From Nitrosomonadales bacterium (GTDB lineage: Bacteria > Pseudomonadota > Gammaproteobacteria > Burkholderiales > Gallionellaceae): a stretch of DNA of 32,995 nucleotides. Shown in pieces: positions 5,955 through 31,470 of this stretch. Location: contig JACRAQ010000002.1 of assembly GCA_016213335.1 (NCBI GenBank), forward strand, positions 1-32,995, read 5' to 3'. The notes under the pieces are model-generated. The model searched no databases. It saw only the letters and a program-made list of their open reading frames with translations, and was not told where the DNA came from. Position 1 is the first letter of the stretch. The number at the start of each line of letters is the position of its first letter. The position numbers and the translations under genes are program-made.

Positions 5955-5999
5955 TGGCGGCAGTATTAATAACAGATAACCAGAATAAGCGAGATAACC

Positions 6000-7181: not shown

Positions 7182-7192
7182 AGGAAGAATGC

Positions 7193-7858: not shown

Positions 7859-7861
7859 AAA

Positions 7862-9645: not shown

Positions 9646-9648
9646 CAA

Positions 9649-10653
9649 TTGAACCCGTCAAACGAACCAGCAGCAAGAGTCAGCGGCATTGACCGGATCC
9701 GGGCATTTGCTGCCCTCTCGGTTATGCTGGCCCATACCAGCGGCCCATATCTGCCGGAAATTTTCCGCTATGTATTTACCGGAATGCCGGCGGTAATTGT
9801 TTTCTTTGTGATATCCGGGTTCTGTATCCATTACCCCTACGTGGCATCGCCGCTTCCCGTTCAGGCATTCTATTGCTCAAGGCTCATGCGAATCCTTCCG
9901 GTAGCGCTCCTGGGAATAGCGCTTGCCAGGATAAGCGGGCACCCGGATTTGCCGGGGTTCAGCTTTACGGGGCAATACATTCTGTGGAGCGTGAACTGTG
10001 AGCTATGGTATTACTTTCTTTATCCCGCGTTTTATTACCTGTCGCGCTTTATTTCCTGGCGCAGGCTGTTGCTGATTTCTTTCCTGATCTATGCCGTCCT
10101 GATCTACCTGAAGCCCGGAGATCAATCCGGAAACCTGCATTACACCTATAGCTGGAAAAATCTGTGGTTAATAGGCCTGCCCGCCTGGCTGGCGGGTTGC
10201 GTACTGGCTCAGGAGCTGCCTTTGTTTCAGCGAATCATCGGCACATGCTCGCATCGCTGGCTATGGCGCCTGACAGCAGCTTCAAGTGCATCCCTGCTGT
10301 GCTGGCTTACGCTCAACTCTCCCATCAAGTATTACTATTCGATGAACCTATTTGCCTTGCTTGTTGTTTTTTGGGTAGCTGTCGAGATTGCCGCCTCCCG
10401 GAAAGAGCTTGCGCCGAGTATATGGGACTGGATTGGGAAGTGGAGTTACTCCATTTACATCTTTCATGAGATTTGCCGCGTGTATCTCCAGATGGCGGGA
10501 ATAAATAGCTGGGTCAAGCTTCCTCTGATACTGGCCGGTTGTTATCTGGCATATCTTGTGGTGGAACTGCCATCACACAAGGCTGCAAAGGCCTTATTTC
10601 GCAAATCGAGGCACATGCTGCGGATAAACACCCCTCGCGGAGCTCTGGTATGA
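9649..10653 (+). CDS. Acyltransferase-3 (OafA/NolL-type) membrane O-acyltransferase
   Basis: A 334-residue polytopic membrane protein. It begins with the family block GIDRIRAFAALSVMLAHTS, whose histidine is a conserved acyltransferase-3 residue. Next come IVFFVISGFCIHYPY and SRLMRILPVAL, the usual RxxR-P region, and roughly nine to ten hydrophobic segments. It probably transfers an acetyl or other acyl group to a lipid-linked sugar at the inner membrane. The start is a TTG at 9649 preceded by AAAGG; no ATG is available before the first motif. It begins four bases after the broken cytidylyltransferase gene. Its stop overlaps the next start as ATGA. Confidence 0.87.
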   Translation: MNPSNEPAARVSGIDRIRAFAALSVMLAHTSGPYLPEIFRYVFTGMPAVIVFFVISGFCIHYPYVASPLPVQAFYCSRLMRILPVALLGIALARISGHPDLPGFSFTGQYILWSVNCELWYYFLYPAFYYLSRFISWRRLLLISFLIYAVLIYLKPGDQSGNLHYTYSWKNLWLIGLPAWLAGCVLAQELPLFQRIIGTCSHRWLWRLTAASSASLLCWLTLNSPIKYYYSMNLFALLVVFWVAVEIAASRKELAPSIWDWIGKWSYSIYIFHEICRVYLQMAGINSWVKLPLILAGCYLAYLVVELPSHKAAKALFRKSRHMLRINTPRGALV

Positions 10654-11963
10654 ATGACGCCAACATGGCCAAGATAGCCGGTGAAATAGAAAGCTATCTA
10701 CGCCGCCTGTTTCCGGTCTGCCGCAGCATTACCGGCAACGGCAACCGGGAAACCCTGCGCACCCTGCAGGAACTCATCCCGCTCACCCTGCATGAAGTGG
10801 CATCCGGCACCCAAGTCTACGACTGGACCATCCCGGACGAATGGAACATCCGCGACGCATGGATCGCTGCGCCGGAGGGCCGCCGCATCGTTGACTTCAA
10901 CGTTAGCAACCTGCACGTCGTCAGTTACAGCAACCCGGTGCGCGGGAGATTTACCTGGGTCGAGTTGCAACCCCACCTGCACACCCATCCCTCGTTGCCT
11001 GATGCGATTCCCTACCGCACCAGCTATTACAGGCGTGACTGGGGTTTCTGCCTTACCCATGCCCAATATCGTGAACTGGAACAACATGGCGGCCCTTTTG
11101 AAATCGTCATTGATTCCACGCTGGAGCCCGGCTCGCTCACCTACGGCGAGCTGCTGCTGCCCGGCCAGTCGAAGCAGGAAATCCTTCTCTCCTGTTACAT
11201 CTGCCATCCCTCCATGGCCAACGATAGCCTGAGCGGCGTGCTGCTCACGGCTTTTCTGGCACGGGAGTTACTGGCCCGCACTGATCGCCGTTATTCCTAC
11301 CGCATCGCCTTCGTGCCGGAAACCATAGGCGCCATCACCTACTGCGCGCGCAATGAAACCGCCATGCAGCAGATTGACACGGGTCTGGTCATCACCACTG
11401 TCGGCGGGCCGGGAAAGTTCGGCTACAAGCAAAGTTTTGAATCCAGCCACGCCATCAACCGCCTCATCGAGGATGTGTTGTGTGAAGCTGGCGTGGATTA
11501 CCTCACCTACCCCTTCGACATTCATGGCAGCGACGAGCGCCAATATTCATCACAGGGCTTTCGCATCAACGCGGCAACTCTTTGCCGTGACCGTTATTAC
11601 GAATACCCCCAGTACCATACCTCCTTGGACAACCTGGATTTCGTCACCGGAAAACAGATTGCCGAAACCCTGGCACTTTATATCCGGCTGATAGACAAGC
11701 TCGAAGCCCGGCGCATCTACCGCAACCGCATTCCCAACTGCGAAGTGATGCTCTCGCGGCACGATCTCTACCCGGCGACAGGCGGCGCCCAACGCCCTGA
11801 GCTTGGCGGACGGTCGGAACTGGACCTGATTCTCTGGCTGCTGTTTCTCTGCGACGGAAAGCTCGACATGAATGCCATTGCGCGCCGATTGGCGGTCTCA
11901 CTGGACACCCTGATTACCATCGCTGACAAGCTGGTATCCAGGGGTGCGCTTGAAGCAGCCTGA
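10650..11963 (+). CDS. DUF4910/DUF2172 aminopeptidase-like zinc protein with C-terminal winged helix
   Basis: A 437-residue protein of the M28-like aminopeptidase family that recurs in surface polysaccharide loci. FPVCRSITGNGNRETL (21-36) is the N-terminal signature. Candidate zinc ligands are H186 and D192 (CYICHPSMANDSLSG), E224 (FVPETIGA), D295 (HGSDERQY) and H323 (YHTSLDNLD). The last 80 residues form a helix-turn-helix-like segment. No signal peptide is seen, so it should act in the cytoplasm. The family has no settled function; an amidase or deacylase acting on an N-acylated sugar is one possibility. The start ATG at 10650 overlaps the acyltransferase stop (ATGA); an earlier in-frame start is open but encodes nothing typical. 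Confidence 0.82.
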   Translation: MNDANMAKIAGEIESYLRRLFPVCRSITGNGNRETLRTLQELIPLTLHEVASGTQVYDWTIPDEWNIRDAWIAAPEGRRIVDFNVSNLHVVSYSNPVRGRFTWVELQPHLHTHPSLPDAIPYRTSYYRRDWGFCLTHAQYRELEQHGGPFEIVIDSTLEPGSLTYGELLLPGQSKQEILLSCYICHPSMANDSLSGVLLTAFLARELLARTDRRYSYRIAFVPETIGAITYCARNETAMQQIDTGLVITTVGGPGKFGYKQSFESSHAINRLIEDVLCEAGVDYLTYPFDIHGSDERQYSSQGFRINAATLCRDRYYEYPQYHTSLDNLDFVTGKQIAETLALYIRLIDKLEARRIYRNRIPNCEVMLSRHDLYPATGGAQRPELGGRSELDLILWLLFLCDGKLDMNAIARRLAVSLDTLITIADKLVSRGALEAA

Positions 11964-14205: not shown

Positions 14206-16293
14206 ATGCTCGAAACAAATGTTTCTGAAAATCGTAAGGCTATTATCTATTTGGCAGACTTGACACACACCGGTGTTACTGTTGCCACCGAAAGCTTCCC
14301 CCTCAATATTGGGCTAGTTGCGTCATACGCAAAAAGACACTTGGGGGATGCTATCGAAGTGCGCTTGTTCAAGTATCCGGAAAAGCTCATTACAGCGCTA
14401 AAAGATCGCGTTCCGGATATTCTTGGCTGCAGCAACTACGTTTGGAACAGCAACTTATCGGAATGGATGCTCGGCTATGCAAAACGCCTGAACCCAGAGG
14501 TAGTAACTGTTCAAGGCGGAACGAATTATCCATTCAGCCCGTCAGGGCAACTGGAATTTCTACGTACCCATCTCAATACCGACTTCCATGTTTACTATGA
14601 AGGCGAGGTTGCCTTCCTCCAATTCCTGAGGCGATATCTGGAAACTCGCAGCCTGGAAGGAATGAAGCAGGCGCCAATTGAGGGGTGCCAGTACCTGTCG
14701 CCTTACGATGGCTCGCTTGTGTCTGCCCCGGCTGCGGTGCGAATCAAGGAACTGGATGATATTCCATCGCCCTATACAACAGGAATTCTAGACGAATTCT
14801 TCGATGGGAAGCTAACACCAATGATGGAAACGACTCGCGGTTGCCCATTCGCATGCAACTTTTGTAATGCGGGAGACAAGTACTTTAACAAGATCAACAT
14901 GTTCTCTCTTGAATATTTCCTGGCCGAGCTTGAATACATAGCCCCTCGTATTTCTGCGGTTGGCGTGTCGCACCTGACTTTGGCGGATAACAATTTTGGC
15001 ATGTACCCTCGCGATGCTGACATTTGCCATGCAATAAAAGATGTGCGGGACAAATATGGGTGGCCCATGGGCCTTATCGCGACGACCGGCAAGAACAGCA
15101 AGGAACGTATTATCAAAGCAACAGAGATTCTTGGCCCGTCGCTTCTGGTGAGCATGTCCGTCCAATCTACAAATCCCGTAGTGCTCAAGAACATCAAGCG
15201 TGACAACATTAAGCTTGACCATTACAAGCAGATTAATAAAACCCTTACCCAACAAGGGCGCACCGGAATGGCAGAAGTTATTCTGCCGTTGCCGGGCGAA
15301 ACATACGAATCATTTTTGAGTGGGATCGAGTCACTAATTGAAGCCGGCGCAGCCAAGGTAACCTCATACACGATTCAGTTGCTTTACGGCACGGATTACA
15401 AGGAGCCGGAATACCGCAAAAAATGGGGTTACGTTGGGAAGTGGCGCCAGATACCCTACGATTTTGGGGAATATGGGGGGGAACGTGTTTTCGACGCGGA
15501 AGAAGTTGCCGTTAGCAACAATACCATCAGCTTCAATGATTATCTAAACATTCGCGGCTTTGCACTCACTACCGAGATTGCATTCAATAACTACATATTC
15601 CATGAAATTCTGCGATACATTCAAGAATATGGAATTTCTTCATTCAAATGGCTCCGGATGGTATGGGACTGCAGGGAAAACTTCCCGGAAGAAATCCAGA
15701 ATGTATTTGCCAGTTTCATTGCTGATACAAAAAACGAGCTTTTTGATACCGAGGCAGACCTCCGGCTCTTTTATGGCAAACAAGAGAATTACGAGCGTCT
15801 GGTCCGGGGTGAAATCGGTGGCAATGTCATTTTTAAGCACAAGACGATGGCGCTGACGCAGCATATTGCTCCATGGTTAAAATATATTACTAAAACCGCC
15901 GAGAACCTTGTAAAGCTCAGCACTCCGGACGAGCGCGAAATGGAACAAGCTGCCACCGAGATCGCGGAAATACGTTATTACCTTGAATGCAAGCTGAACG
16001 GCATTCTTGACAGCACCAGCACCGAGCCTATCATCGCACGCTTCCACTATGACATTCTGGCTTGGATGAAAGATGAAAACGGCAGTCGCTTGCGCGATTA
16101 TTACCGCCCCGGAGGCGTGAGTATTTCCTTCCATTTCAGCGATCAGCAGTTGACCGAGCGCCGAGACGGCTTCCAGCGTTACGGAACACATCTTCTTGGA
16201 TTGACCAAGATTCTGCAGCGGATTCCATCACACGACCGCCTTTTCCGCCAAGTAGCTTATGCTACCGGCCAGATAGCAGTGCCCAGCACTTGA
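14206..16293 (+). CDS. Large radical SAM protein, B12-binding-domain type
   Basis: A 695-residue protein. The N-terminal 180 residues look like the Rossmann-type B12-binding fold found ahead of radical SAM domains (NIGLVASYAKRHLGD, then VTVQGGTNYPF and YEGEVAFLQF). The cluster motif is RGCPFACNFC (C213, C217, C220), followed by LTLADNNFGMYPRDADI and ILPLPGETYESFL, typical of this group. A canonical DxHxxG cobalamin lower-ligand motif is not visible, so B12 may bind without it or not at all. The last 250 residues are unassigned. The start ATG at 14206 has AAGAGG nine bases upstream; a TTG 12 codons earlier is less likely. The stop overlaps the next start as TTGA. Confidence 0.88.
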   Translation: MLETNVSENRKAIIYLADLTHTGVTVATESFPLNIGLVASYAKRHLGDAIEVRLFKYPEKLITALKDRVPDILGCSNYVWNSNLSEWMLGYAKRLNPEVVTVQGGTNYPFSPSGQLEFLRTHLNTDFHVYYEGEVAFLQFLRRYLETRSLEGMKQAPIEGCQYLSPYDGSLVSAPAAVRIKELDDIPSPYTTGILDEFFDGKLTPMMETTRGCPFACNFCNAGDKYFNKINMFSLEYFLAELEYIAPRISAVGVSHLTLADNNFGMYPRDADICHAIKDVRDKYGWPMGLIATTGKNSKERIIKATEILGPSLLVSMSVQSTNPVVLKNIKRDNIKLDHYKQINKTLTQQGRTGMAEVILPLPGETYESFLSGIESLIEAGAAKVTSYTIQLLYGTDYKEPEYRKKWGYVGKWRQIPYDFGEYGGERVFDAEEVAVSNNTISFNDYLNIRGFALTTEIAFNNYIFHEILRYIQEYGISSFKWLRMVWDCRENFPEEIQNVFASFIADTKNELFDTEADLRLFYGKQENYERLVRGEIGGNVIFKHKTMALTQHIAPWLKYITKTAENLVKLSTPDEREMEQAATEIAEIRYYLECKLNGILDSTSTEPIIARFHYDILAWMKDENGSRLRDYYRPGGVSISFHFSDQQLTERRDGFQRYGTHLLGLTKILQRIPSHDRLFRQVAYATGQIAVPST

Positions 16294-17990
16294 ACAATAA
16301 TATTCGCATCATAGCCCTTACTCCGTATTCGGAAATCAGCGGCGAGACGATTCTGATCGGGGCCAATTGCACCGATGCTTCCTTTGGCAGAACATTTGGC
16401 GGCCTGCATCCGGCCATGATTTCACCTTACAGGGATCACGCGGCTATCGAACAAGCATCCCAATATTGCTGGGGAGCCGCACTTAATATCTGCGGCAGCC
16501 TGTCGGAACAGCTCAATCGTATCCTGGGTGTAAAGCGCGGCCCGCTTTATTGGGAGGCTCTGCTACTGCCATGGCTTGTCGCGTGGGTGGAGAACCTGTA
16601 CGACCGCTACCTGCGGCTTGATTGGGTGCGAAAAAATATGCCGGATGGGATCCTAGAATTGCCTCATGTGATACTGCCTGCCCCCCTCTATCAAAAATCT
16701 TTTGATGTTTGGTGCCAATCACACCCCCACTCGGTCAACGCATCCATTTATAGCCTTCTCATCGGATGTATGGGCATGCAGAATAATGTGCGCTTCCTGG
16801 GAATACCCCCGGAGGAAACCCGCACGGCAAGCGGCATTTCTGGCAGGCAAAAGCTGAAAGGATTGGTCAAACGATATGCGGGCTCTTTAATCAAACCAAG
16901 CCCTTTTAAGCAGGCAGGTATCAACTGCACCGAACTTATGCATGAATCTGTCAAGGATTCGGGTTTCGCCGCACAGGATTTGGATCGTGGCTCCTTGCGC
17001 ATCGAACAGCCGCAGGATGAGTTTAAGAAGATATTGGCGATCCTCACAGCCAAGACGCTTCCATCCGCCCTTTTCGAGGAGTACCACGCGCGTAGCGCCT
17101 ACGCGCAACAGCTGATACAAAAACGAAAAATTCACACCCTATGCATTTCAAATACATTTTGGGGCAACGATACCATCAAGTATGTTCTGGCTGAACTCCG
17201 GGAATCAGGCGCCCGAGTGCTGGGGCGACAACATGGCTCAGGTTATGGAAACTATGAGCTCAATACGCCAGAACAGATAGAGCGGCATCTAACCGACATC
17301 TTCATTACTTGGGGCTGGACAGACAAGCGTCACTGCCAAACTTTACCCTTGCCCGATCCTAAGTTATCTGGCCTATCTGACATTCACGCGGCAGCAAACG
17401 ATAATATTTTATTTATTGGATCGCACGGTGGAATGTACATGTTTCGGTATCAGAGCTACGTTATTCCGGAATTTGTCTATGATCGGTATGCGCCCATGCA
17501 GGGAATTTTCCTTAATGCGCTCAGCAAGGCTGTCAGAAGCCGTATAGTCTACCGGCCATACCTTGTGGAGTATGGGTGGGGAGAGCGGGAAAGATTGAAG
17601 CGGTTTCAGCCCGGAATTCGCTTTGATTCTGCCCCGCAAGCAATCAAGAGCATGTCTCGATGTTCCCTGGCAGTGATTGACCACCCAGGAACCTCTCTCT
17701 TGGAAGCTTTGGTCATGAATACGCCTACCATCGCATACTGGGAGCCGGAACAATCTCCGATGCGAGCCGAAGCGCAGCCCTATTTCGAGCTACTCAAAGG
17801 CGCAGGCATCCTTTTTGATAGCCCGGAAGAAGCCGCCAAGCAGGTAAATTCGGTTGCGGGCGATCCGCAATCCTGGTGGAAAAATAACGCTGTACAGGCT
17901 GCTCGCAGGAATTTCTGCCGCCGCTTCGCTTGGGCAGAACCCGATTGGAAGCCTTACTGGGTAAATGCGTTAAAGAATAGAACCTCCTAG
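16290..17990 (+). CDS. LIC12162-family surface carbohydrate transferase
   Basis: A 566-residue protein that I recognise as the LIC12162-type putative transferase first noted in Leptospira O-antigen loci. The N-terminus (IIALTPYSEISG, later RGPLYWEALLLPWL) fits this family. The C-terminal half looks like a GT-B-type transferase: GRQHGSGYG, FITWGWTD and a SLAVIDHPGTSLLEALVMNTPTI block that resembles the nucleotide-binding half of CDP-glycerol or Kdo-like transferases. Its biochemical activity is not established. The start is a TTG at 16290 overlapping the radical SAM stop; no other start lies near the N-terminal motif. It probably adds the modified sugar made by the preceding genes. Confidence 0.78.
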   Translation: MNNNIRIIALTPYSEISGETILIGANCTDASFGRTFGGLHPAMISPYRDHAAIEQASQYCWGAALNICGSLSEQLNRILGVKRGPLYWEALLLPWLVAWVENLYDRYLRLDWVRKNMPDGILELPHVILPAPLYQKSFDVWCQSHPHSVNASIYSLLIGCMGMQNNVRFLGIPPEETRTASGISGRQKLKGLVKRYAGSLIKPSPFKQAGINCTELMHESVKDSGFAAQDLDRGSLRIEQPQDEFKKILAILTAKTLPSALFEEYHARSAYAQQLIQKRKIHTLCISNTFWGNDTIKYVLAELRESGARVLGRQHGSGYGNYELNTPEQIERHLTDIFITWGWTDKRHCQTLPLPDPKLSGLSDIHAAANDNILFIGSHGGMYMFRYQSYVIPEFVYDRYAPMQGIFLNALSKAVRSRIVYRPYLVEYGWGERERLKRFQPGIRFDSAPQAIKSMSRCSLAVIDHPGTSLLEALVMNTPTIAYWEPEQSPMRAEAQPYFELLKGAGILFDSPEEAAKQVNSVAGDPQSWWKNNAVQAARRNFCRRFAWAEPDWKPYWVNALKNRTS

Positions 17991-21503: not shown

Positions 21504-24386
21504 GTGAATAATTTCATTGCCCGATTTGGCGCCACTCTTCGCGGGGAAGTTCATGCGGACTTGCTGTCGCGCGGTCTCTACGCCACCGATGCCAGCATGT
21601 ATCAGATGCTGCCGCTGGCTGTGGTTACTCCGCTGGATCGCGACGATACGGTAGCAGCGGTCAGGCTCTGCGCTGAACTGGGTTTGCCTCTGCTGGCCCG
21701 TGGCGGAGGCACCAGCCTGACCGGCCAATCCGTGGGCGAGGCAGTTATTCTGGATGTTTCCAGACATCTGACCCGTGTGCTGGAGTTGAATCTGGAAGAA
21801 GGATGGGTGCGGGTGGAGCCGGGTGTAGTATGCGGCGAACTCAATGTGCTGCTGAAACCGCATGGCGTGCATTTTGCGCCCGACCCGGCCACGGCCAGCC
21901 GCGCCAATATCGGCGGCATGATCGCCAACAATGCGGCGGGCATGCGCTCGGTGCGCTATGGCATGACCATTGACCATGTGCTGGCGCTCGATCTGGCACT
22001 GGCCACGGGCGAAGTGCTGAGCCTGGGGCCACTGGACAGGCAACAACTGGCCGCCAAGTGCGCACTGCCTGACCGTGAAGGCGACATCTACCGCGGCCTG
22101 CGCGACTTGATGCAACATGCAGACGAGATTCGCGCCCGCTACCCCAAAGTAATCCGCCGTTCGGGCGGCTATGCGCTGGATGCACTGGCCAATGCGGACC
22201 CCCTGAACCTGGCCAAGCTGATCTGCGGCAGCGAAGGTACGCTGGGCGTGATACTGGAAGCCAGGCTGCGCCTTACTCCGCTGCCCCGCCACAGCGCTGT
22301 CTGCCTCGCGCATTTCGACAGCCTTGATGCCGGCCTGCGCGCGGCTGCACCCATTGTGGCTGACAGCCCCTCGGCGGTGGAGCTGATTGATGGCGTCATC
22401 CTGCGCCAGGCAAAGATGCATCCACTCACGCGTGACATTTGCTCACTGATTCATGGCGACCCGGCATCCGTGCTGGTGATCGAAGTGCAGGGCGAGAATT
22501 CCGATGCCGTGGCAGCGCATATCCACCGCATTGCCGATAGTCTTGCGGGCCGTGCCTATGCCGCACCGGTGATGACCGACTCCGACGACATCCGGGATGT
22601 CTGGCAGTTGCGTGCCAGCGCGCTGGGCCTGATGACCACCGTGCAGGGCCCTAGAAAACCCGTGCCCTATATCGAGGACGCGGCAGTACCCCCCGAGGCG
22701 CTGGCCGACTATGTGGCCGAAGTGCTGGCGGTCTGCCGCAAGCATGGCCAGCCCGTGTCCATGTTCGGCCACGCCAGCGTCGGGTTGATCCACATCCGCC
22801 CCCTGCACGACCTGCACCAGAGCGCCGACATCGCACGCATGGCGCAGATTCAGGAAGAGGTTTTTCCTTTGGTGCAGAAATACGGCGGGTCATGGAGCGG
22901 CGAGCACGGCGATGGCATAGTCCGCGGCGGCTTCAACCGGCGATTTTTCGGCGATCAGCTCTACGGCGCATTTTGCGAAGTAAAGCGGCTGTTTGACCCG
23001 GAAGGCCGGATGAACCCGGGCAAGGTGATTGGCACGCCGCCCCTGGATAGCCATCTGCGCTTCGGGTCTGGCTACAAACCATTGCCCGTCAAGAGCCTGT
23101 TTCATTATCGTGCAGAGGGCGGCATGCTGGCGGCTGCGGAGCAGTGTACCGGCGTGGGCGACTGCCGCAAGCCGCAGGGCGGGGTAATGTGTCCGTCCTA
23201 TGCCGCTACCCGTGAAGAGATTCACAGCACCCGCGGGCGCGCCAATGCCCTGCGCCTTGCGCTGACCGGGCAGCTTGAGCCCGAAGCAATAAGCAGCGAT
23301 GAGCTGAAGGCGGTGATGGATCTGTGTCTGGCATGCAAGGGTTGCAAGGGCGAATGCCCGAACAGCGTGGATATGGTGCGCCTCAAATCCGATGTGCTGC
23401 ACCAGCACCAAAAGCGTCACGGGGTTCCGTTGCGGGCACGATTTTTTGGGCATCTGCCCGGCCTTGCCCGGTTGGCATCCGGCCCGCAGGCCCCGCTGGT
23501 CAATGTCCTGATGGGCAGCACACCCATGCGCGGCTTGATGGGAAAAGTGCTGGGCGTTGATCCCATGCGTCCGCTGCCGCCGTATGCAAGCCAGCGCCTG
23601 AGTAAATGGTTTGCGCAGCGCCCCTCCAGTAGCGCCGTTGCGGGGAAGAATTGCAGGCCCCGTGTTGTGCTTTTCAACGACACCTATACCGAGCACTACC
23701 TGCCGCAAGTAGGGCGTGCGGCCATCGAGGTTCTTGAAGCGGCGGGCTATCGGGTTGATCTGGCCACCCTGGGTGACAGCCAGCGCAGCGCCATCTCTCA
23801 GGGGTTGCTCGATCAGGCCAGGCGCGATGGCATCCGGCTGTTCCAGCGGCTGGATGAGATGCTTGCGGACAATACGCCGCTGCTGGTCTGCGAGCCCAGT
23901 TGCGCCACAGCGCTGGCCGACGATCTTCCGGATCTGCTGAATGACGCCGAGCTGGCCCGGCGTGTTGCCCGTCGCGTCCGGATGCTGGATTGTTTTCTGG
24001 AACAGGAGCTGGCCTCCGGTCGCTGCACACTGCCCTGGAAAATACCGGAGACAGATGCACCCCGGCATTTTCTGGTGCATGGCCATTGTCACCAGAAAAC
24101 TCTGGATGGGGGCCGCTGGACCCACCGGCTGCTGGCCCGTATTCCCGGTGCAACCGTGGCAGACAGCGAAGCCGGTTGTTGCGGCATGGCGGGCGCATTT
24201 GGCTATGAGATTGAACATGCCGGATTTTCGCGTAAAATCGCCAGCCAGCGATTGTTGCCACGCCTGGGCAAAATCAGTGGCGAGACTCGCGTGGTGGCCA
24301 ATGGTTTTTCCTGTCGCCATCAGATTGCCGATCTGGGTGGGCGGCAGCCCAGCCATGTGGCGGAACTGATTCGGGAATTTTTGTAA
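21504..24386 (+). CDS. FAD-linked oxidoreductase fused to Fe-S/CCG domains (D-2-hydroxyacid dehydrogenase, YdiJ/GlcD-GlcF type)
   Basis: A 960-residue fusion. The N-terminal FAD_binding_4 domain has LARGGGTSLTGQSVG (about 64-78) and PDPATASRANIGGMIANNAAG. A FAD-oxidase C domain follows, with GHASVGLIHIRP and WSGEHGDGIVRG, and it ends at LFDPEGRMNPGKVI. The ferredoxin part has CTGVGDCRK...MCPSY and CLACKGCKGECP. Two cysteine-rich CCG-type modules follow (CEPSCATAL, GHCHQKTL, EAGCCGMAGAFG). Such enzymes oxidise D-lactate, D-2-hydroxyglutarate or glycolate and pass electrons to quinone or cytochrome. The start is a GTG at 21504. The exact substrate is not predictable. It looks like a housekeeping gene and is GC-rich, unlike the next operon. 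Confidence 0.92.
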   Translation: MNNFIARFGATLRGEVHADLLSRGLYATDASMYQMLPLAVVTPLDRDDTVAAVRLCAELGLPLLARGGGTSLTGQSVGEAVILDVSRHLTRVLELNLEEGWVRVEPGVVCGELNVLLKPHGVHFAPDPATASRANIGGMIANNAAGMRSVRYGMTIDHVLALDLALATGEVLSLGPLDRQQLAAKCALPDREGDIYRGLRDLMQHADEIRARYPKVIRRSGGYALDALANADPLNLAKLICGSEGTLGVILEARLRLTPLPRHSAVCLAHFDSLDAGLRAAAPIVADSPSAVELIDGVILRQAKMHPLTRDICSLIHGDPASVLVIEVQGENSDAVAAHIHRIADSLAGRAYAAPVMTDSDDIRDVWQLRASALGLMTTVQGPRKPVPYIEDAAVPPEALADYVAEVLAVCRKHGQPVSMFGHASVGLIHIRPLHDLHQSADIARMAQIQEEVFPLVQKYGGSWSGEHGDGIVRGGFNRRFFGDQLYGAFCEVKRLFDPEGRMNPGKVIGTPPLDSHLRFGSGYKPLPVKSLFHYRAEGGMLAAAEQCTGVGDCRKPQGGVMCPSYAATREEIHSTRGRANALRLALTGQLEPEAISSDELKAVMDLCLACKGCKGECPNSVDMVRLKSDVLHQHQKRHGVPLRARFFGHLPGLARLASGPQAPLVNVLMGSTPMRGLMGKVLGVDPMRPLPPYASQRLSKWFAQRPSSSAVAGKNCRPRVVLFNDTYTEHYLPQVGRAAIEVLEAAGYRVDLATLGDSQRSAISQGLLDQARRDGIRLFQRLDEMLADNTPLLVCEPSCATALADDLPDLLNDAELARRVARRVRMLDCFLEQELASGRCTLPWKIPETDAPRHFLVHGHCHQKTLDGGRWTHRLLARIPGATVADSEAGCCGMAGAFGYEIEHAGFSRKIASQRLLPRLGKISGETRVVANGFSCRHQIADLGGRQPSHVAELIREFL

Positions 24387-24585: not shown

Positions 24586-26199
24586 ATGACCATCAAGCTC
24601 CTTGATTGCACCCTCCGCGACGGGGGTTACTACAACAACTGGGACTTCGAGCCGAGCACAGTGCATAAGTATCTAGTTGCCATGGCATCTTCTGGTGTTG
24701 ATATGGTCGAGATTGGTTTTCGGCTGAAACCGGCAAACACCTTTCTCGGGGCGTTTGCCTATTCCACCGATGATTATCTTGCTGCTTTAAACGTCCAAAC
24801 AACATTGAAGCTGGCGGTCATGATCAACGCTTCTGAATTTGTGGCGGAACCCAGAGGGGGGGCGAGTGCGGTGGATACCTATTTTGCGCCCGCTGCACTA
24901 TCGCCAGTCAGCATGGTGCGAATAGCACTGCGCGTCCGCGATGTCGCCTCAGCAAAACATATCGCATTACGACTACGGGAATTGGGTTACACACTTGCGG
25001 TCAATCTGATGCAGATCGATTCGCTGAATAAAGAGGAAATAATTTCTGCTGCGAAAGAGATCGCATCGTGGGGTGCGGTAGACGTTCTGTATTTTGCAGA
25101 TTCCCTAGGAAACCTGGAACCTGAGTCCACTAGGCAAATCATCAGGGTACTTGACTCGGTTTGGCCAGGAGAACTGGGCTTTCACTCCCATGACAACAAG
25201 GGGCAGGCTTTTGTGAACTGCTTGGCCGCTGCGGACTCAGGCGTTACTTGGCTGGACGCAACGATACTTGGCATGGGGCGCGGCGCTGGCAATGTTCGTA
25301 CAGAAAATCTGCTGATCGAACTCGAAAAGAGAAAGCTGGGCACATACAACGTGCAGTCGTTATATCCCCTCGTACTGGAAGATTTTGCCGCACTTCATAA
25401 ACAATATGGCTGGGGAGCCAATCTGTTTTACCACCTGTCCGCAGTTGAAGGCATACACCCGACTTATGTCCAGGAACTCCTGGCTTCTGATCGATATTCG
25501 CCAGATGAGATACTCTCCGCACTGAAATACCTGAGTGGCACAGAGGCGCGCTCATATAACCCCGGCGCATTGGGAGCAGCGGTTCGCGGCGCTGATCCGG
25601 GGGGTGAGGGTACTTGGCATGCAGGCGGATGGGCGCAAGGCCGGAGCGTATTAATCATTGGCTCGGGAGCCTCAACTGCGCAGCACATGGGTACCATCGA
25701 GCAATATATCCGGCGCAAACAGCCCATTGTACTGTGCCTTAATATCAATCGTGCAGTGCCGACCGATCTGGTGAGTGCTTACGTGGCTTGCCACGAGTCG
25801 CGCATCCTTATCGAGGCGCATCATTATTGTGAACTGGGCAGGCCGGTTATTCTTCCGTTGGCCCGGGTTCCTAAAGGGGTACGTGCCTTGCTGAAAGGGG
25901 TAGAGGTGCTGGATTACGGATTGCGCCTATCCGACAAACGTGTCGAGGTAGGGAATACGGGATGCGTTTTGCCTACAACGTTAGCGGCTGCTTATGCCAT
26001 TGCCATTGCAACGGCAGCCGGGGCAGAACGGATATTGATGACGGGCATTGACGGTTATGCAGCCGGCGATCCGAGGCAAGAAGAAATGATCGAGGCGCTG
26101 GAGCATTACCAACGCGTGGATAAAGCCATACCGATAATGGCGATTACACCAACAACTTATCCCATCATGCAGCGCTCAATATATGAGCCTAATCTTTAA
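24586..26199 (+). CDS. HMGL/DmpG-type aldolase with extra C-terminal domain
   Basis: A 537-residue protein. The N-terminal 300 residues form a DRE-TIM barrel: LLDCTLRDGGYYNNW (5-19, with R11 and D12), GFHSHDNKGQAF with the metal pair H200/H202, and GMGRGAGNVRTE (229-240). This resembles 4-hydroxy-2-oxovalerate aldolase and HMG-CoA lyase relatives, which make or break C-C bonds next to pyruvate or acyl-CoA enolates. From about residue 353 a second Rossmann-like domain (VLIIGSGASTAQH, later RILMTGIDGYAAGD) of unknown role is attached. The ATG at 24586 follows TAAGGG. It starts a five-gene unit that ends with KdsB, so a role in building a deoxy-sugar acid is likely. Confidence 0.85.
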   Translation: MTIKLLDCTLRDGGYYNNWDFEPSTVHKYLVAMASSGVDMVEIGFRLKPANTFLGAFAYSTDDYLAALNVQTTLKLAVMINASEFVAEPRGGASAVDTYFAPAALSPVSMVRIALRVRDVASAKHIALRLRELGYTLAVNLMQIDSLNKEEIISAAKEIASWGAVDVLYFADSLGNLEPESTRQIIRVLDSVWPGELGFHSHDNKGQAFVNCLAAADSGVTWLDATILGMGRGAGNVRTENLLIELEKRKLGTYNVQSLYPLVLEDFAALHKQYGWGANLFYHLSAVEGIHPTYVQELLASDRYSPDEILSALKYLSGTEARSYNPGALGAAVRGADPGGEGTWHAGGWAQGRSVLIIGSGASTAQHMGTIEQYIRRKQPIVLCLNINRAVPTDLVSAYVACHESRILIEAHHYCELGRPVILPLARVPKGVRALLKGVEVLDYGLRLSDKRVEVGNTGCVLPTTLAAAYAIAIATAAGAERILMTGIDGYAAGDPRQEEMIEALEHYQRVDKAIPIMAITPTTYPIMQRSIYEPNL

Positions 26200-26223
26200 A
26201 AAACGAAAAGCGGAGTGAAAACG

Positions 26224-27243
26224 ATGAGCAGATTTGAGATCCTGCGTGACCTGTTGTCACGCGGGAAATATTTCAAGCTGGTATGTGGCGCCGGCAATGA
26301 AAATGTCGAAGAGGTCAAGCGCTTGGCCTTGGTCTATACCTTGGCAGGCGCCAATGGGTTCGATGTCTCAGCAACACCAAAAGTCGTGGATGCATGCGTG
26401 AAAGGTATAGACTTGGCTTACCGTCACGCCGAAAAACTGGGGGGAGAGATACCCATTCGTCCATTCATTACGGTAAGCGTGGGGATGCCGGGAGACCATC
26501 ACGTCCGAAAGGCTTTCATCATCGACGATTGCGTCGATTGCGGCAAGTGCATTCCCGTATGCCCCACCGACGCGATTCCCAAGGACTACAACATCATTCG
26601 CGAGAAATGCATCGGTTGCGGAAACTGCGAGGCCGTTTGTCCGCCCAAGGTGGCTGCCGTGCGTTACGAACACAACGATAAGGCATTAAGCGAAATTCTG
26701 CCGCTCTGCCTGAAGACAGGTGCGGAAAATATTGAATTGCACGCCGCCGTACCGGGTGACGACAAGATACTGGAAGAATGGAAGATGGTGAGCGACGCCC
26801 AACCGGACAACTTTATCTCAATGTGCCTGGACCGACATCACCTTTCGAATATGCATCTGATCGAGCGTATTCGCGCTGCCCGGGAAATTGCGGGGGAACG
26901 TACCATGATCCAGGCCGATGGTGTGCCTATGAGTGGCGGCGCCGATGATTTCAATACGACCCTACAGGCTATCGCTATTGCTGATGTAATTCAGAAAAAC
27001 TTAAAAGCAAAGGATAAGACTTTCCAGAATATGCCCATACTCCTTTCTGGTGGCACCAACGGTAGGACTGCCGAGATGGCAAGGATGTGTGATACACCCT
27101 ACCAAGGGGTTTCGATCGGCACTCATGCGCGCAAAATCATCAAAACCTGGATCAGCGAGGCAAATTTCGAAAATGACCTGAACGCAATTCGTGCGGCAGT
27201 GGAGCCCGCCGCCGATCTTGTAAAACGAAGTGTAGTCCAGTGA
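26224..27243 (+). CDS. LdpA-like protein with two [4Fe-4S] motifs in a TIM-barrel-like scaffold
   Basis: A 339-residue protein. Two complete ferredoxin motifs are present: C103, C106, C109, C113 (CVDCGKCIPVCP) and C129, C132, C135, C139 (CIGCGNCEAVCP). They are inserted between segments that look like parts of a TIM barrel (LAGANGFDVSA before; MIQADGVPMSGG and ILLSGGTNGRT after). The arrangement resembles the cyanobacterial iron-sulfur protein LdpA, whose enzymatic activity is unknown. I chose the ATG at 26224, with GGAG eight bases upstream, over the GTG at 26215. The stop overlaps the HAD gene start as GTGA. A redox or dehydration step on a sugar-acid precursor is a reasonable guess but unproven. 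Confidence 0.82.
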   Translation: MSRFEILRDLLSRGKYFKLVCGAGNENVEEVKRLALVYTLAGANGFDVSATPKVVDACVKGIDLAYRHAEKLGGEIPIRPFITVSVGMPGDHHVRKAFIIDDCVDCGKCIPVCPTDAIPKDYNIIREKCIGCGNCEAVCPPKVAAVRYEHNDKALSEILPLCLKTGAENIELHAAVPGDDKILEEWKMVSDAQPDNFISMCLDRHHLSNMHLIERIRAAREIAGERTMIQADGVPMSGGADDFNTTLQAIAIADVIQKNLKAKDKTFQNMPILLSGGTNGRTAEMARMCDTPYQGVSIGTHARKIIKTWISEANFENDLNAIRAAVEPAADLVKRSVVQ

Positions 27244-28010
27244 CAGCGCTGTACGCGAATGGGGTAATGCTACTGGATAGCCCCGAGATGGTGCTGCTGG
27301 ACAAAGACGGTACCATCATCGACATTCATCACTACTGGACTTCGATGATCCGTCTGCGCGCCCGACTGGTCGTCGAACAGTGCTTCAGGGGGCGAACTGA
27401 CGCAATTGATGTGGAACACAATTTAATTGACGCGATGGGCGTGGACATTTCCAGTGGGAGAATGAAACCTGAGGGTCCGGTAGGCGTTAAGCCTCGCCCG
27501 TTCATTGTCGGTGTAACTGCCGCCACAGTGCGTGAATCAGGCGTGGATATGGATGATGCGCGCATGGAGGCCATCTTCGCGGAGATCGACCGGAGGACTG
27601 CAGCAGATTTGCTCCCTCTGCTCAGGCTCTTGCCCGGAGTGAAGGATCTTCTAGACGCGTTGCGTGCACGCGCGATTGCGGCTGCCGTCGTCTCAACCGA
27701 TATCACCAGCCGCGCCACTTCGGCCATGCAAGCCTTGGGCATCGCACATTACTTCAGCGCCATTATTGGCGGTGATGCGGTAGCGCATACCAAGCCCGCC
27801 CCCGATCTAGCTCATACCGCTCTGGCTTCTAGTAGTTGCAGCCCATCCCGTGCGGCGGTGATCGGCGATCACCCGGTAGATATTCAAATGGGGCACAACG
27901 CCAGATGCGCCGCCAATATAGCGGTTCTGACCGGCTTGTCGGATGCGGATGCCTTTAGCGGTCTGGGATGCACACTGGTTGATAATCTGACGTACGTTAC
28001 AGTGAGGTGA
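27240..28010 (+). CDS. HAD-superfamily phosphatase
   Basis: A 256-residue protein with all four HAD motifs: LLDKDGTIID (nucleophile D21 and acid D23), VVSTD (motif II, 151-154), K185 in HTKPAPD, and IGDHPVDIQMG (D210, D214). A helical cap lies between motifs I and II. It starts with a GTG that overlaps the preceding stop. In Kdo and sialic-acid pathways a phosphatase of this superfamily removes phosphate from the ulosonate before CMP activation, and the downstream KdsB makes such a role likely here. It is not a KdsC of the short, cap-less kind, so the substrate may differ from Kdo-8-phosphate. Confidence 0.87.
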   Translation: MTALYANGVMLLDSPEMVLLDKDGTIIDIHHYWTSMIRLRARLVVEQCFRGRTDAIDVEHNLIDAMGVDISSGRMKPEGPVGVKPRPFIVGVTAATVRESGVDMDDARMEAIFAEIDRRTAADLLPLLRLLPGVKDLLDALRARAIAAAVVSTDITSRATSAMQALGIAHYFSAIIGGDAVAHTKPAPDLAHTALASSSCSPSRAAVIGDHPVDIQMGHNARCAANIAVLTGLSDADAFSGLGCTLVDNLTYVTVR

Positions 28011-28014
28011 TGAG

Positions 28015-28800
28015 ATGCTGATTCGATCGCCTATGCGCGAAAAGTTGTCTCGTGGCGAACCTGTCATCGGGACTTGGAATACATTGGCGTCTCCCTTAGT
28101 CACCGAGGTCATGGCGCAAGCAGGATTTGATTTTCAGATCATCGACCTTGAGCACGGGCCGTTTGTCCTGGATCAGGTGCATCTACACGTTTCTGCCTGC
28201 GAGAACGGATCGAACTGCTCCCCCTTGGTGCGCATCCCGGCAAACGAGTCGTGGATGGCCCTTCAGGCACTGGATCAGGGCGCGCATGGCGTGGTCGTCC
28301 CGAATATTCAGGATGCTCAAGCGGCACTCAAGCTTGCTCAAGCGATCAAGTACCACCCAAACGGCATGCGAGGATTTACCCCCTTTCCCAAGGCAGGGGG
28401 ATTTTCGAACCAGCGCACGGCGGAGTATGTGCGCACGGCCAACCGGGAAACATTAGGGATCGCAATCATTGAATCACTTACAGGCTTGAACAATGTAGAA
28501 GAGATCGCCACCCAAGAGGGGATCGACGTGGTCTACTTCGGCGCTTACGATCTTTCTCAAGCCTTGGGGCACCCGGGGGAACCCCGTCATCCAGATGTTG
28601 TAGTCGCCATCCAGCAAGGCGCAGAACGGGTTCAAATGCTTGGAAAGTGCGCGGGCGGATTCGTGCCCCAATCCAAAGACGACGTCAAATGGCTACTCGA
28701 CTTGGGTATGCGATTCATCACTTACGAAGTAGACAGCTCCATCCTGTTTCGTCATATACGTGACTTGCGCGATTGGTTCACGACGGAGACCGCCAAATGA
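28015..28800 (+). CDS. HpcH/HpaI-family class II pyruvate aldolase
   Basis: A 261-residue protein of the 2-keto-3-deoxy acid aldolase family. Equivalents of the HpaI catalytic residues are present: H47 in DLEHGP, R73 in LVRIP, E153 in IIES and D179 in AYDLS. The glycine-rich GAHGVVVPN block (89-97) is also typical. These enzymes join pyruvate and an aldehyde to make 4-hydroxy-2-oxo (3-deoxy) acids, which is the carbon skeleton of ulosonic acids. The ATG at 28015 follows GAGGTGA. Its stop overlaps the kdsB start as ATGA. It could replace the PEP-dependent synthases normally used to make a CMP-activated sugar acid. Confidence 0.9.
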   Translation: MLIRSPMREKLSRGEPVIGTWNTLASPLVTEVMAQAGFDFQIIDLEHGPFVLDQVHLHVSACENGSNCSPLVRIPANESWMALQALDQGAHGVVVPNIQDAQAALKLAQAIKYHPNGMRGFTPFPKAGGFSNQRTAEYVRTANRETLGIAIIESLTGLNNVEEIATQEGIDVVYFGAYDLSQALGHPGEPRHPDVVVAIQQGAERVQMLGKCAGGFVPQSKDDVKWLLDLGMRFITYEVDSSILFRHIRDLRDWFTTETAK

Positions 28801-29555
28801 TCGCCAAGAAACCAAAAACCGTTGCGCTGATTCCGGCGCGCTTGCAATCTTCCCGTCTACCCCGCAAGGCCTTGGCAGATATCCACGGCATGCCCATGAT
28901 CGTGCATGTCTACAAACGCTGCCTCCTTGCGAAGCACCTCGATGCAGTCTATGTTGCGACTGACAGCGAGGAAATCCGTAGTGCGGTGGAAAACTATGGT
29001 GGCCGTGTTGTCATGACTTCGACTGCTCATGAAACCGGCACAGACCGTATTGCCGAGGCCTCTGGGCAATTGGAGGCTGAAATTGTGGTTAATGTTCAGG
29101 GCGATGAGGCGCTGGTGAATCCAGAATACATTGATCGGGTGGTAGAGGCTCTCTACCACGATTCATCGATAGATGTCGCCATCCTCGTCAACCCATTCGG
29201 TAAACGTCATTCACTTTCGGATATCAAGACTGTGCTGAACGAGCATGATGATGTAATGTATTTTTCCCGTGCCGACATTCCGTCAGATGCACGCACTCCT
29301 AACCCGCCTATGCTCAAGGCTTATCATATTGTGCCGTTCCGAAAAGAATTCCTGTTGCAATATACAGCATGGAACAAGGGGGTTCTGGAGCGCATCGAGT
29401 ACAACGAGTATCTGCGTATCCTGGAAAAAGGGCATCGCATTCGTGCGGTACGCGTTGAAAGTGATGCCCTCAGCGTGGATACGCCTGAAGATCTCGAATT
29501 TGTGCGCGAGAAAATGTTGACGGATTCGTACTACCCTAAGTATCGGTTGACTTGA
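28797..29555 (+). CDS. kdsB: 3-deoxy-manno-octulosonate cytidylyltransferase (CMP-Kdo synthetase) or paralogue
   Basis: A 252-residue protein, the usual KdsB length. VALIPARLQSSRLPRKALADI (9-29) is the CTP-binding loop, HETGTDRIAEA (78-88) and VNVQGDEALV (99-108, metal-binding D103) are KdsB signatures, and SVDTPEDLEFVRE closes the fold. It transfers CMP from CTP to Kdo or a close relative. I use the ATG at 28797 overlapping the aldolase stop; the open frame extends eight codons upstream. It is probably not the housekeeping kdsB, since it is co-transcribed with the aldolase genes. It may accept an 8-amino or other modified ulosonate, as the Shewanella enzyme does. Confidence 0.92.
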   Translation: MIAKKPKTVALIPARLQSSRLPRKALADIHGMPMIVHVYKRCLLAKHLDAVYVATDSEEIRSAVENYGGRVVMTSTAHETGTDRIAEASGQLEAEIVVNVQGDEALVNPEYIDRVVEALYHDSSIDVAILVNPFGKRHSLSDIKTVLNEHDDVMYFSRADIPSDARTPNPPMLKAYHIVPFRKEFLLQYTAWNKGVLERIEYNEYLRILEKGHRIRAVRVESDALSVDTPEDLEFVREKMLTDSYYPKYRLT

Positions 29556-29646
29556 TCAATGTGCATTAAAAATGAAGCTCGTCGCAGGGTTTTCCAGGTA
29601 TGGCTGCCGGTATTGCCAGATATGACTGGCTTGCGGAAATTTGTCC

Positions 29647-31470
29647 ATGAAGATTAGCATCGCCACGCCTGGATGCGTGGGCAAGCTGGAAGCAAAAGAA
29701 TGCGGCTGGATTTATGCGGACGATGATCTGGGAACATTCCGCCTGATACGCGAAATTTTGGGGAATCCCGGCCTCATGGTATCTGCCGAGGTTTTTCAGC
29801 AAACTGCTTTAGACCTCCAGGCCCCGTTTGTTTGCTGGGTGGACGAGTGCATGAGCGCAACGCCACGCAGCTACTGGCTGGCAACCCCATTGAGCAAGAA
29901 CCCTTTCGAGAGCAACCTGTTTCTGCATCTGGTCTGGATGGTGGTGATAGATCGGGCCATCCAACAGGAGAAGAACGGGATTGTCGTGGTAACGGAGTCG
30001 CATGGACTGGCCTTGGCATTGGCAGAGTTGTGCCGCATCCGTGGCTGGGAATGCAAACGCTACGGCAAAACCAGCAGCCTTTTCCGGCACGGGCGCCGCA
30101 ATTTTATTGCCCTCGCAAAATGGCTCGGCAAGCTGCTGCTCCTGGGTTATAGGGCAATTGTGGCAAGGGGCCTGTTCACGGACAAATTCGTGACTGCCCA
30201 GCTTTCCAGTACAGAACTCCTGCTCGAAACCTATATTCACGATGGGGATATGGGTGAAAACGGGAACTGCAAGGATCGGTATTTTCCCGGACTGATGGCG
30301 TATTACCGCGCTCAGGGTGTCAAAGCCGGTTATTTTCCGCTGCTTCACCGCATCCCATTCCTGCGCCTTAGGAAAACCTATGCCGCCATGAAACGGAGCG
30401 AAATTCCCTTTGTGCCTTTCGAGGCATTTATTACTTTTCGGGATATCGCCCTGGCAGCCTGGACGAGCATGCGGCACGGGCTGTCATCCCACCTGCCAAC
30501 CCTTCCGGCCTTTCAGGGCATGCCGGCAAGTGCGCTGGTTCGGACGGAACGTTTCACTACCGGGCTGCGCAGCGTCATGCCTCTTGTTCATGCGAGCGCT
30601 CCGCGCCGCATGGCCGGGGCGGGAATACAACCGAAATGGTTTATTGACTGGTTCGAGAACCAGACTCTGGATAAGGGTATCGTGTTGGGGCTCAAGGAAG
30701 CCTTGCCGGATTGCCGCATAATTGCGGTGAGGCAATATGCGCCTTTGAGCAATTTCCTCTCGCAGCTTTCTACATCGGGAGAGGTCAAGGCTGGCGTTGC
30801 CCCCACCGAGAACTGGGTATGCGGGGAAGCGCTCAAGCCAATGCTTTCGCGCTTTGATGCAGTGGGCAGGTATTCTGCCGTGCCCGCGCTCCGCTATGCC
30901 TATCTTCACCAGGCATCTCCCACCATTGAGTTGGGCAATACGTTGCTGGTGCTGCTGACACATTCGGCAGAAGAGTCGCTGGGTATCCTGGGTTGTGTTG
31001 CACCACTTTGCCTAGAAGAAGGAACGGATGCCTCCCGTTTTGTTGTGAAAACTCACCCGGATATGAACCTCGAACTGTTCCGGCAAAAGGCGGAGCGGCG
31101 CTTCCCTGATCTGGAAACTAATATCGTAGAGTGGACAGATCGCAAATTGAGCGAGCTTCTGCCCACTGCAAAAATAGTCGTGACATCCGGCTCCAGCGCG
31201 GCATTGGAAGCCATTTGCCGGGGAATTCCCGTTGTGCTGATCGGACGGCAGGCGGGGCTGAATTTCAACCCACTGTGTGAAGCTGATCCGAAAATATGGC
31301 TCATTGTTTACACTTCAGAAGATTTGAGAGAGGCCATTGCCCAACGATTTTGCGAAGAACAGTTGCCGGGTACAGAGCGGCTCGCCATCGCAGAAAGCAC
31401 GAGAAAAGCTTTTTTCATGGAAACTGGGAGCAATAAGATGCACCGTTTTTTGCCAATGGAACAAAGGTAA
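29647..31470 (+). CDS. LIC13510-like surface carbohydrate biosynthesis protein, probable transferase
   Basis: A 607-residue cytoplasmic protein. I place it tentatively with the LIC13510-type family of putative surface carbohydrate proteins described in Leptospira. The C-terminal third looks like a GT-B sugar-nucleotide half: ILGCVAPLC, FVVKTHPDM, WTDRKLSELLPTAKIVVTSGSSAALEAICRGIPVVLIG. The N-terminal two thirds are not recognisable beyond a hydrophobic stretch near residue 160. The start is the ATG at 29647, with GGAAA upstream as a weak ribosome-binding site. It lies downstream of kdsB, so it may use the CMP-ulosonate made by that operon, which is an inference from position. Confidence 0.65.
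   Translation: MKISIATPGCVGKLEAKECGWIYADDDLGTFRLIREILGNPGLMVSAEVFQQTALDLQAPFVCWVDECMSATPRSYWLATPLSKNPFESNLFLHLVWMVVIDRAIQQEKNGIVVVTESHGLALALAELCRIRGWECKRYGKTSSLFRHGRRNFIALAKWLGKLLLLGYRAIVARGLFTDKFVTAQLSSTELLLETYIHDGDMGENGNCKDRYFPGLMAYYRAQGVKAGYFPLLHRIPFLRLRKTYAAMKRSEIPFVPFEAFITFRDIALAAWTSMRHGLSSHLPTLPAFQGMPASALVRTERFTTGLRSVMPLVHASAPRRMAGAGIQPKWFIDWFENQTLDKGIVLGLKEALPDCRIIAVRQYAPLSNFLSQLSTSGEVKAGVAPTENWVCGEALKPMLSRFDAVGRYSAVPALRYAYLHQASPTIELGNTLLVLLTHSAEESLGILGCVAPLCLEEGTDASRFVVKTHPDMNLELFRQKAERRFPDLETNIVEWTDRKLSELLPTAKIVVTSGSSAALEAICRGIPVVLIGRQAGLNFNPLCEADPKIWLIVYTSEDLREAIAQRFCEEQLPGTERLAIAESTRKAFFMETGSNKMHRFLPMEQR

Follow-up and report, generated by a model that had tools for sequence, protein, structure and literature searches.

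A putative aldolase-based locus for CMP-activated ulosonic acids in a surface-polysaccharide cluster of a Nitrosomonadales bacterium

Ulosonic acids, such as 3-deoxy-D-manno-oct-2-ulosonic acid (Kdo) and the sialic acids, shape bacterial surfaces, and to our knowledge all biosynthetic routes to their cytidine monophosphate (CMP)-activated forms begin with a phosphoenolpyruvate (PEP)-dependent synthase. Here we analyse a 32,995-nucleotide stretch of DNA from a Nitrosomonadales bacterium (GenBank assembly GCA_016213335.1, contig JACRAQ010000002.1, positions 1 to 32,995), hereafter called the window, which represents a surface-polysaccharide cluster and contains a five-gene operon at positions 24586-29555. 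Like the Kdo pathway (KdsA-KdsC-KdsB), the operon combines a carbon-carbon bond-forming step with a HAD-family phosphatase and a KdsB-family CMP-transferase, and a 2-keto-3-deoxy acid is the expected product. However, the operon lacks a PEP-dependent synthase and contains instead a predicted metal-dependent pyruvate aldolase, and its KdsB belongs to a separate clade. The operon thus follows the logic of the Kdo pathway, a pyruvate aldolase taking the position of KdsA, but as a set it is not a member of that pathway. The five genes and the gene that follows them are:

24586..26199, + strand: HMGL-type protein of 537 amino acids (PF00682), with a predicted DmpG-like class II pyruvate aldolase at residues ~1-340 and a second domain at residues ~345-537
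25618..26196, + strand: second, C-terminal domain encoded by the HMGL gene; its relatives match the MptE-like family PF01973
26215..27243, + strand: LdpA-like protein, a TIM barrel interrupted by a ferredoxin module of the 2[4Fe-4S] type (LdpA_C, Fer4)
27240..28010, + strand: HAD-family phosphatase with the motif DKDG[TV]xx[DN]xxxYW (HAD_2, PF13419)
28015..28800, + strand: HpcH/HpaI-type class II pyruvate aldolase (PF03328)
28797..29555, + strand: KdsB-family CMP-transferase of a separate clade (PF02348, TIGR00466)
29641..31470, + strand: TIGR04326-like surface carbohydrate protein (49.1 bits, below the curated cut-off of 250), a possible transferase for the product

All five reading frames of the operon are open on the plus strand and are joined by junctions of +15, -4, +4 and -4 bases, with 199 free bases upstream and 85 downstream, which bears out the coordinates and the tight arrangement described in a first-pass annotation of the window. 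The family assignments made there also agree with the profile matches (PF00682; Fer4 and LdpA_C; HAD_2; PF03328; PF02348 and TIGR00466). For KdsB, the ATG at 28797 is a likelier start codon than the TTG at 28773 given in the list of open reading frames (ORFs). Neither KdsA nor NeuB was found within 24586-29555 by the family scan of the ORFs.

On balance, we consider it probable that the operon serves to produce, by aldol chemistry, a 2-keto-3-deoxy sugar acid (an ulosonic acid) in CMP-activated form for a surface polysaccharide. In the pathway that we infer, with its substrates, product, order of steps and reductive role for the LdpA-like protein, the HMGL-type enzyme, or HpcH/HpaI in some of the loci with an LdpA-like gene, would form the enolate of pyruvate on a divalent metal, and the enolate would be added to a sugar aldehyde that is probably phosphorylated. 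The HAD enzyme would take the phosphate off the aldol product, the KdsB paralogue would join the sugar acid to CMP, and a transferase, perhaps the TIGR04326-like protein, would use the activated acid. In the version encoded by the window, the LdpA-like protein may reduce a sugar intermediate with electrons that arrive through its pair of clusters. HpcH/HpaI, as the second aldolase of this version, may either make the acceptor or add a second pyruvate.

The gene content and its conservation support this scheme. A scan of genome contigs with an alignment of the HMGL-type protein matched at least 591 stretches, at least 585 of them relatives, and the best 80 loci (L numbers) were kept. The HMGL frame was at least 480 amino acids long in 74 of the 80, and two Streptomyces loci without the C-terminal domain (L113, L114) were dropped, leaving 72 loci. 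The six loci outside the 74 were L096 (broken frame, both partners present), L108 and L115 (match at or near a contig end), L107, L111 and L117. A cytidylyltransferase gene is located on the same strand within 60 bases of the HMGL gene in 51 of the 72 loci and within 3 kilobases (kb) in 65. Under the latter limit, a HAD gene is present in 51 loci and both partners in 50, HpcH in 4, NeuB in 2 and KdsA in none. Before the two loci were dropped, the counts taken from the frame ends on either strand were 66 of 74 for the cytidylyltransferase, 54 for HAD and 51 for both, and anywhere in these 74 loci NeuB was found in 11 and KdsA in one, L106. In that locus (Bacillus sp. ISL-41, 4111-11347), HMGL, KdsB and HAD are accompanied by a second KdsB and KdsA nearby, which is unusual for a Gram-positive bacterium. 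Among the clusters of called genes within reach of HMGL, the HAD cluster had 46 members and the cytidylyltransferase clusters 45 and 23, while the next cluster had 16. The genes beyond this triad of HMGL, cytidylyltransferase and HAD are not constant, which suggests that the acceptor aldehyde may be a common metabolite.

HMGL lies near a cytidylyltransferase in loci from Pseudomonadota, Bacillota, Bacteroidota, Cyanobacteriota, Actinomycetota and Omnitrophota, and some triads (L049, L109) contain a PseF/NeuA-like cytidylyltransferase instead of KdsB. The C-terminal domain is encoded in the same frame as HMGL in 71 of the 72 loci, and none of the five uncut relatives without it (L107, L111, L113, L114, L117) has a cytidylyltransferase within 3 kb. 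The remaining locus, L116, on a 4,182-base contig from a marine Bacteroidetes single cell, provides another piece of support: aldolase and CMP-transferase are here naturally fused, HMGL and KdsB forming one open frame of 592 amino acids (1118-2893), with PF00682 at residues 24-276, PF02348 at 352-561 and no MptE-like domain between them. The first-pass annotation had cast the HMGL-type enzyme as supplying or modifying the aldehyde partner and HpcH/HpaI as the aldolase of the pathway. The comparison favours another division of labour, as HMGL is the steadiest partner of the CMP-transferase, mostly without a nearby HpcH gene, and HMGL is therefore the likelier enzyme to form the carbon-carbon bond. 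The HMGL-type protein is rare, with matches in 4 of 398 genomes of the phylum sample at 1e-25 (two of them full-length, of which one is the window's own), and no match was found in phages at 1e-15. Near HMGL in the Marinobacter loci L047, L050, L052 and L060, there is a gene for a protein of 422-425 amino acids that looks sialyltransferase-like by eye; the L047 copy has no Pfam match.

The set with an LdpA-like gene, as in the window, is to judge by these loci a rarer version of the aldolase/CMP-transferase locus. All five genes occur together in four other loci, one actinobacterial and three from Omnitrophota (L042, L056, L161, L162), and L056 repeats the exact gene order. The set recurs across phyla, as the first-pass annotation had proposed to check, and its presence in four other loci argues against a chance assembly. 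L045 contains the set without HpcH, L160 lacks HMGL in the locus but has it in the genome, and L163 holds a partial set cut by the contig end. L157, L159 and L093 contain HMGL, KdsB, a triad-type HAD and the LdpA-like gene but not HpcH, while in L155, L156 and L158 the LdpA-like gene is located beside divergent HpcH-family proteins. The match in L158 is just at the cut-off (25.5 versus 25 bits), and an HMGL gene is found elsewhere in that genome. Two contigs listed as viral (L164, L166) carry HpcH-family genes beside the LdpA-like gene, and another, L165, is cut. Overall, an HMGL or HpcH-family gene is present in 17 of 17 uncut loci with an LdpA-like gene. A TIGR04326-type gene also directly follows KdsB in L056 (432.5 bits) and L042 (88.4 bits).

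The fold of the HMGL-type protein and its metal- and pyruvate-binding residues also support the scheme. In the AlphaFold2 model, built from 60 sequences with a mean predicted local distance difference test (pLDDT) score of 94.5, residues 1-339 are most similar to 3dxi, the putative aldolase BVU_2661 from Bacteroides vulgatus (Z 38.6, root mean square deviation (rmsd) 2.2, 298 aligned residues). The two proteins share 33% identity over the barrel and the TLRDGGYY motif, but the solved chain of 3dxi represents the N-terminal domain and its function is unassigned. Next come five entries for DmpG-type aldolases (Z 34.3-35.7, rmsd 2.6-3.3, 321-326 aligned). The similarity to the DmpG/BphI 4-hydroxy-2-oxovalerate aldolases (1nvm, 4lrs, 4jn6, 8ih7) covers the fold over residues 1-339 and the Arg, the Asp and two His residues: R17, D18, H200 and H202 of DmpG (1nvm), an arginine and three metal ligands, align with R11, D12, H200 and H202. 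R112, N140, D172 and these four residues do not vary among the 60 sequences, although the conservation of R11 and D12 is partly due to selection, since the search patterns that recovered the loci covered residues 7-22; the other invariant residues are unaffected. The HMGL-type protein differs from DmpG/BphI in that His21 is replaced by Tyr15, no aldehyde dehydrogenase partner is encoded in the operon, a C-terminal domain is present and the setting is a polysaccharide cluster. It scores 91.9 bits against the equivalog model TIGR03217, below the cut-off of 286. The predicted structure and the alignment make a DmpG-like class II pyruvate aldolase the likelier assignment. The second domain, residues 345-537, is called MptE-like because PF01973 matches in relatives (17 of 41 at E up to 1, best 3.1e-5), as structure searches were filled by the barrel; the window's own copy gave no PF01973 match at E up to 1.

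The second aldolase of the operon matches PF03328 with 116.2 bits (cut-off 25), and its nearest solved relatives are 7v8t and GarL (1dxe). It shares with the HpaI/GarL class II aldolases the full set of catalytic residues, H47, R73, E153 and D179, which are kept in 12 of 12 HpcH-type rows, while His and Arg are missing in five of five divergent second copies. However, it scores far below the equivalog cut-offs of these aldolases, and its company consists of the HMGL, LdpA-like and KdsB genes. The HAD motif DKDG[TV] and the following YW are present in 11 of 11 proteins that were picked by likeness to the window HAD. The triad HAD of L046 does not have this motif, and L093, L157 and L159 carry the triad-type HAD.

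A phylogeny of 66 KdsB proteins placed the LdpA-type rows (window, L056, L042, L045, L160-L163) in one clade of eight with support 99/93, which again favours the scheme. The 16 housekeeping rows also grouped together (88/79, not starred), and a third group of 39 rows consisted mostly of triad KdsB plus L153 and L154 (99/97), while L090, L106_b and L120 fell outside the three groups. The window KdsB has A175, H177, V179 and Y205 where the housekeeping enzymes have H, G and Y (16 of 16 each) and Q (14 of 16), and the triad group mostly has Q, C, Y and I. L090, L106_b and L120 were dropped from this comparison, and none of its 63 rows has lost D103 or D228. In the Aquifex KdsB, D95 and D219 bind Mg-A and Kdo is bound by the C-terminal half (PMC3149649). 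Judging from the motifs, D103 and D228 would correspond to these two aspartates. The window protein is above the cut-offs of TIGR00466 (165.8 versus 155.2 bits) and NF009905 (258.9 versus 255) but below that of the equivalog NF003948 (182.4 versus 281).

The distribution of KdsA was surveyed in 25 genomes (G numbers), of which 24 contain a module of either type and one, G1157, is a control with the clock protein LdpA only. KdsA was above the cut-off in 17 genomes, and not in the other eight (G1157, G1233, G1259, G1194, G1277, G672, G1406, G673). In the seven of these eight that have a module, the sole KdsB match of at least 127 bits is located at the module, and all other matches are at most 39 bits; no KdsB match was found in the control. 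HMGL is present in G672, G673, G1194, G1259 and G1406. G1233 and G1277, whose loci contain HpcH and LdpA-like genes, gave no HMGL match at 1e-15. G1259 has one NeuB match of 18.9 bits, below the cut-off, and G1406 (Rossellomorea) has one of 32.1 bits (Pfam cut-off 22.1). Since these lie at the same places as weak KdsA-family matches, they are most likely proteins similar to 3-deoxy-D-arabino-heptulosonate 7-phosphate synthase. Two of the seven KdsA-less module genomes, G1259 and G1406, are accordingly without a clear NeuB as well. The completeness of the genomes is not stated, so that the absence of KdsA and NeuB from them is provisional. The earlier proposal that a pyruvate aldolase stands in for the PEP-dependent synthase gains strong comparative support, to which the seven of eight KdsA-less genomes contribute, with the amendment that the aldolase is more likely of the HMGL type than HpcH/HpaI.

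Several observations weigh against the proposed aldol route. With profiles, no HAD gene was found within 3 kb in 21 of the 72 HMGL loci and no cytidylyltransferase in 7. The position of His21, the base of DmpG, is Tyr15 in the window protein and Tyr in 59 of 60 sequences, so the base differs. L153 and L154 contain HpcH, KdsB, HAD and LdpA-like genes, but HMGL was not found in these genomes at 1e-15, and L167 contains LdpA-like, HAD, HMGL and HpcH genes, but KdsB was not found in the 11 kb read. The barrel of the LdpA-like protein gives general TIM-barrel matches only with Foldseek and VIA-align (best, ribulose epimerase, Z 17.9, rmsd 3.1, 215 aligned; KDPG/KHG aldolase, Z 17.7, rmsd 2.9, 209 aligned) and was therefore assigned to no specific enzyme family. 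Five of the seven KdsA-less module genomes have a clear NeuB elsewhere (G672, G673, G1233, G1194, G1277). Finally, the idea that the pathway operates where there is no PEP-dependent synthase fails for the window itself, which contains NeuB at 7862-8932 and comes from a genome with KdsA (C135; 408 bits, cut-off 314) and a second, housekeeping KdsB that is 39% identical to that of the operon. The ordinary precursor is therefore on hand.

This bears on the alternative that the substrate of the KdsB paralogue is ordinary Kdo, or 8-amino-8-deoxy-Kdo (Kdo8N) made by KdnB and KdnA, and that the role of the aldolases and the LdpA-like protein is a separate one, the synthesis of an acidic side group of the glycan. 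Besides KdsA in the genome and a window KdsB that passes TIGR00466, there is a clear KdnB-like and KdnA-like pair for Kdo8N synthesis at 4830-7181, ahead of the NeuB gene. The iron-containing alcohol dehydrogenase-type protein of the pair matches KdnB (5k8c) with 298.3 bits, in a tie with the iron-containing alcohol dehydrogenase 3rf7 (298.4), and the best solved relative of the DegT-type protein is KdnA (5k8b) with 285.6 bits, compared to 162.4 for the runner-up. However, a scan of 15 LdpA-type loci and their flanks of up to 10 kb (L042, L045, L056, L093, L153-L163) found no KdnB-like protein, the LdpA-type KdsB clade is separate from the housekeeping KdsB and differs at C-terminal positions, similar loci are present in genomes without KdsA, and the aldolase is fused to KdsB in L116. 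We consider this alternative unlikely.

The HMGL-type protein could also be a Claisen-type synthase that condenses acetyl-CoA with a keto acid, as homocitrate and isopropylmalate synthases do, in which case KdsB would activate a branched hydroxy acid. These enzymes share the PF00682 superfamily, and the HMGL-type protein has weak matches to both. The structural comparison nevertheless makes this improbable, as the DmpG pyruvate aldolases are closest after 3dxi over residues 1-339, while homocitrate synthase, at Z 28.1 at most (rmsd 2.5, 248 aligned), falls some 6 Z units short of them and aligns over residues 1-272. Profile search and Foldseek rank the same enzymes first, 3dxi and the DmpG-type aldolases.

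Nucleotidyl activation is reported in phosphonate biosynthesis (PMC6697681), and the CMP-transferase might by analogy with PntC, which acts on phosphonates, activate a non-sugar acid served by the aldolases. This is very improbable, as Kdo cytidylyltransferase models are the best matches of the KdsB proteins tested, those of the window, L046 and L153 (the enzymes of L049 and L109 being PseF/NeuA-like), and the loci represent surface-polysaccharide clusters. That the aldolases are catabolic and placed beside KdsB by chance or by hitch-hiking in a variable cluster is scarcely credible even though HpcH/HpaI and DmpG relatives of known role are mostly catabolic, given that the nearness is kept in six phyla and that a cytidylyltransferase lies within 3 kb in 0 of 5 uncut relatives without the C-terminal domain.

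Within the aldol route to an ulosonic acid, a reductive step carried out by the LdpA-like protein is our best guess, and a tentative one. The protein shares the two-part architecture of the clock protein LdpA and eight cysteines that are kept in all 26 rows of the alignment, clock LdpA included. However, the identity is 27-30%, the score against the clock LdpA model NF045992 is 136.6 bits (equivalog cut-off 450), and the gene is located in polysaccharide loci, also beyond the cyanobacteria. The model is a TIM barrel with a pLDDT of 78.9, in which the insert that would hold the clusters has low confidence (below 50 for residues 98-156). L042 and L045 contain a ferredoxin-NADP reductase-like gene between the HAD and LdpA-like genes, with E-values of 5.9e-6 to 2xnj (L042) and of 1.5e-7 and 1.9e-8, below the cut-off, to NF008178; neither gene has a Pfam match. 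A second, weaker LdpA-like protein is encoded beside the first at L093:15416-16291, L154:5962-6837 and L158:9079-9930, and the copy in L093 is without the ferredoxin insert.

In the Microthrix class, 1 of 247 genomes (Microthrix itself) encodes the LdpA-like protein, as do 6 of 237 Omnitrophota genomes (the phylum of L042). In the family to which the Prochlorococcus locus L093 belongs, it was found with at least 398 bits in 8 of 251 genomes, and the other matches of at most 111 bits (117 for a second copy in G673) were taken for clock LdpA. An order-wide search of 300 genomes matched 222, swamped by ferredoxin-like proteins, with a best score of 35.7 bits outside the window's own genome. No LdpA-like protein was found in named phages and plasmids at 1e-20. 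Among contigs listed as viral, an alignment search recovered four relatives and the single window sequence none, and a PHROGs scan of nine proteins beside these genes gave matches for two only. In L166, the LdpA-like and HpcH-family genes are accompanied by a thiamine pyrophosphate enzyme, and in L167 the LdpA-like, HpcH-family, HAD and HMGL genes by a DegT-like protein.

Elsewhere in the window, a NeuA/SpsF-like cytidylyltransferase frame adjoining NeuB (8902-9645) is broken by an in-frame TAG and represents a pseudogene or an assembly error. A LIC12162 family transferase is located at 16290-17990 (TIGR04331, 355 bits), a family known from surface carbohydrate loci of Leptospira. A protein with flavin adenine dinucleotide and 4Fe-4S domains, of the GlcD/D-lactate dehydrogenase type, is encoded at 21504-24386, 199 bases upstream of the operon, and D-lactate dehydrogenases (PF09330) also adjoin the modules of L153 and L157.

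No account of the module was found in the open-licence literature, as far as its accessible parts extend, and a publication elsewhere is possible. Klebsiella K38 was considered because a short ulosonic acid, 3-deoxypentulosonic acid, is said to occur there. It was rejected, as PMC6856556 gives a 4-deoxy-hex-4-enuronic acid instead. For E. coli K3, 4-deoxy-2-hexulosonic acid is named in the title of a reference listed in PMC10433991. A distant blastn search of E. coli genomes with the enterobacterial module copy L067 (2,990 bases) gave no match, and a diverged copy is still possible.

A wider claim, which we regard as a real possibility short of probable, is that six or more phyla share an undescribed PEP-independent route to CMP-ulosonates in which the two-domain aldolase replaces KdsA or NeuB. 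The LdpA-like branch would then have added an iron-sulfur reductase, the product of which would be an ulosonic acid that is reduced or has lost a further oxygen, and clock LdpA would descend from, or still be, such an enzyme. If true, many surface polysaccharides would contain sugar acids that are unpredictable from current rules, and the aldolases would be new biocatalysts for making ulosonic acids. It would also explain the KdsB copies in genomes where KdsA was not found, and the LdpA-like branch would trace a circadian redox protein back to an enzyme, an origin that can be tested.

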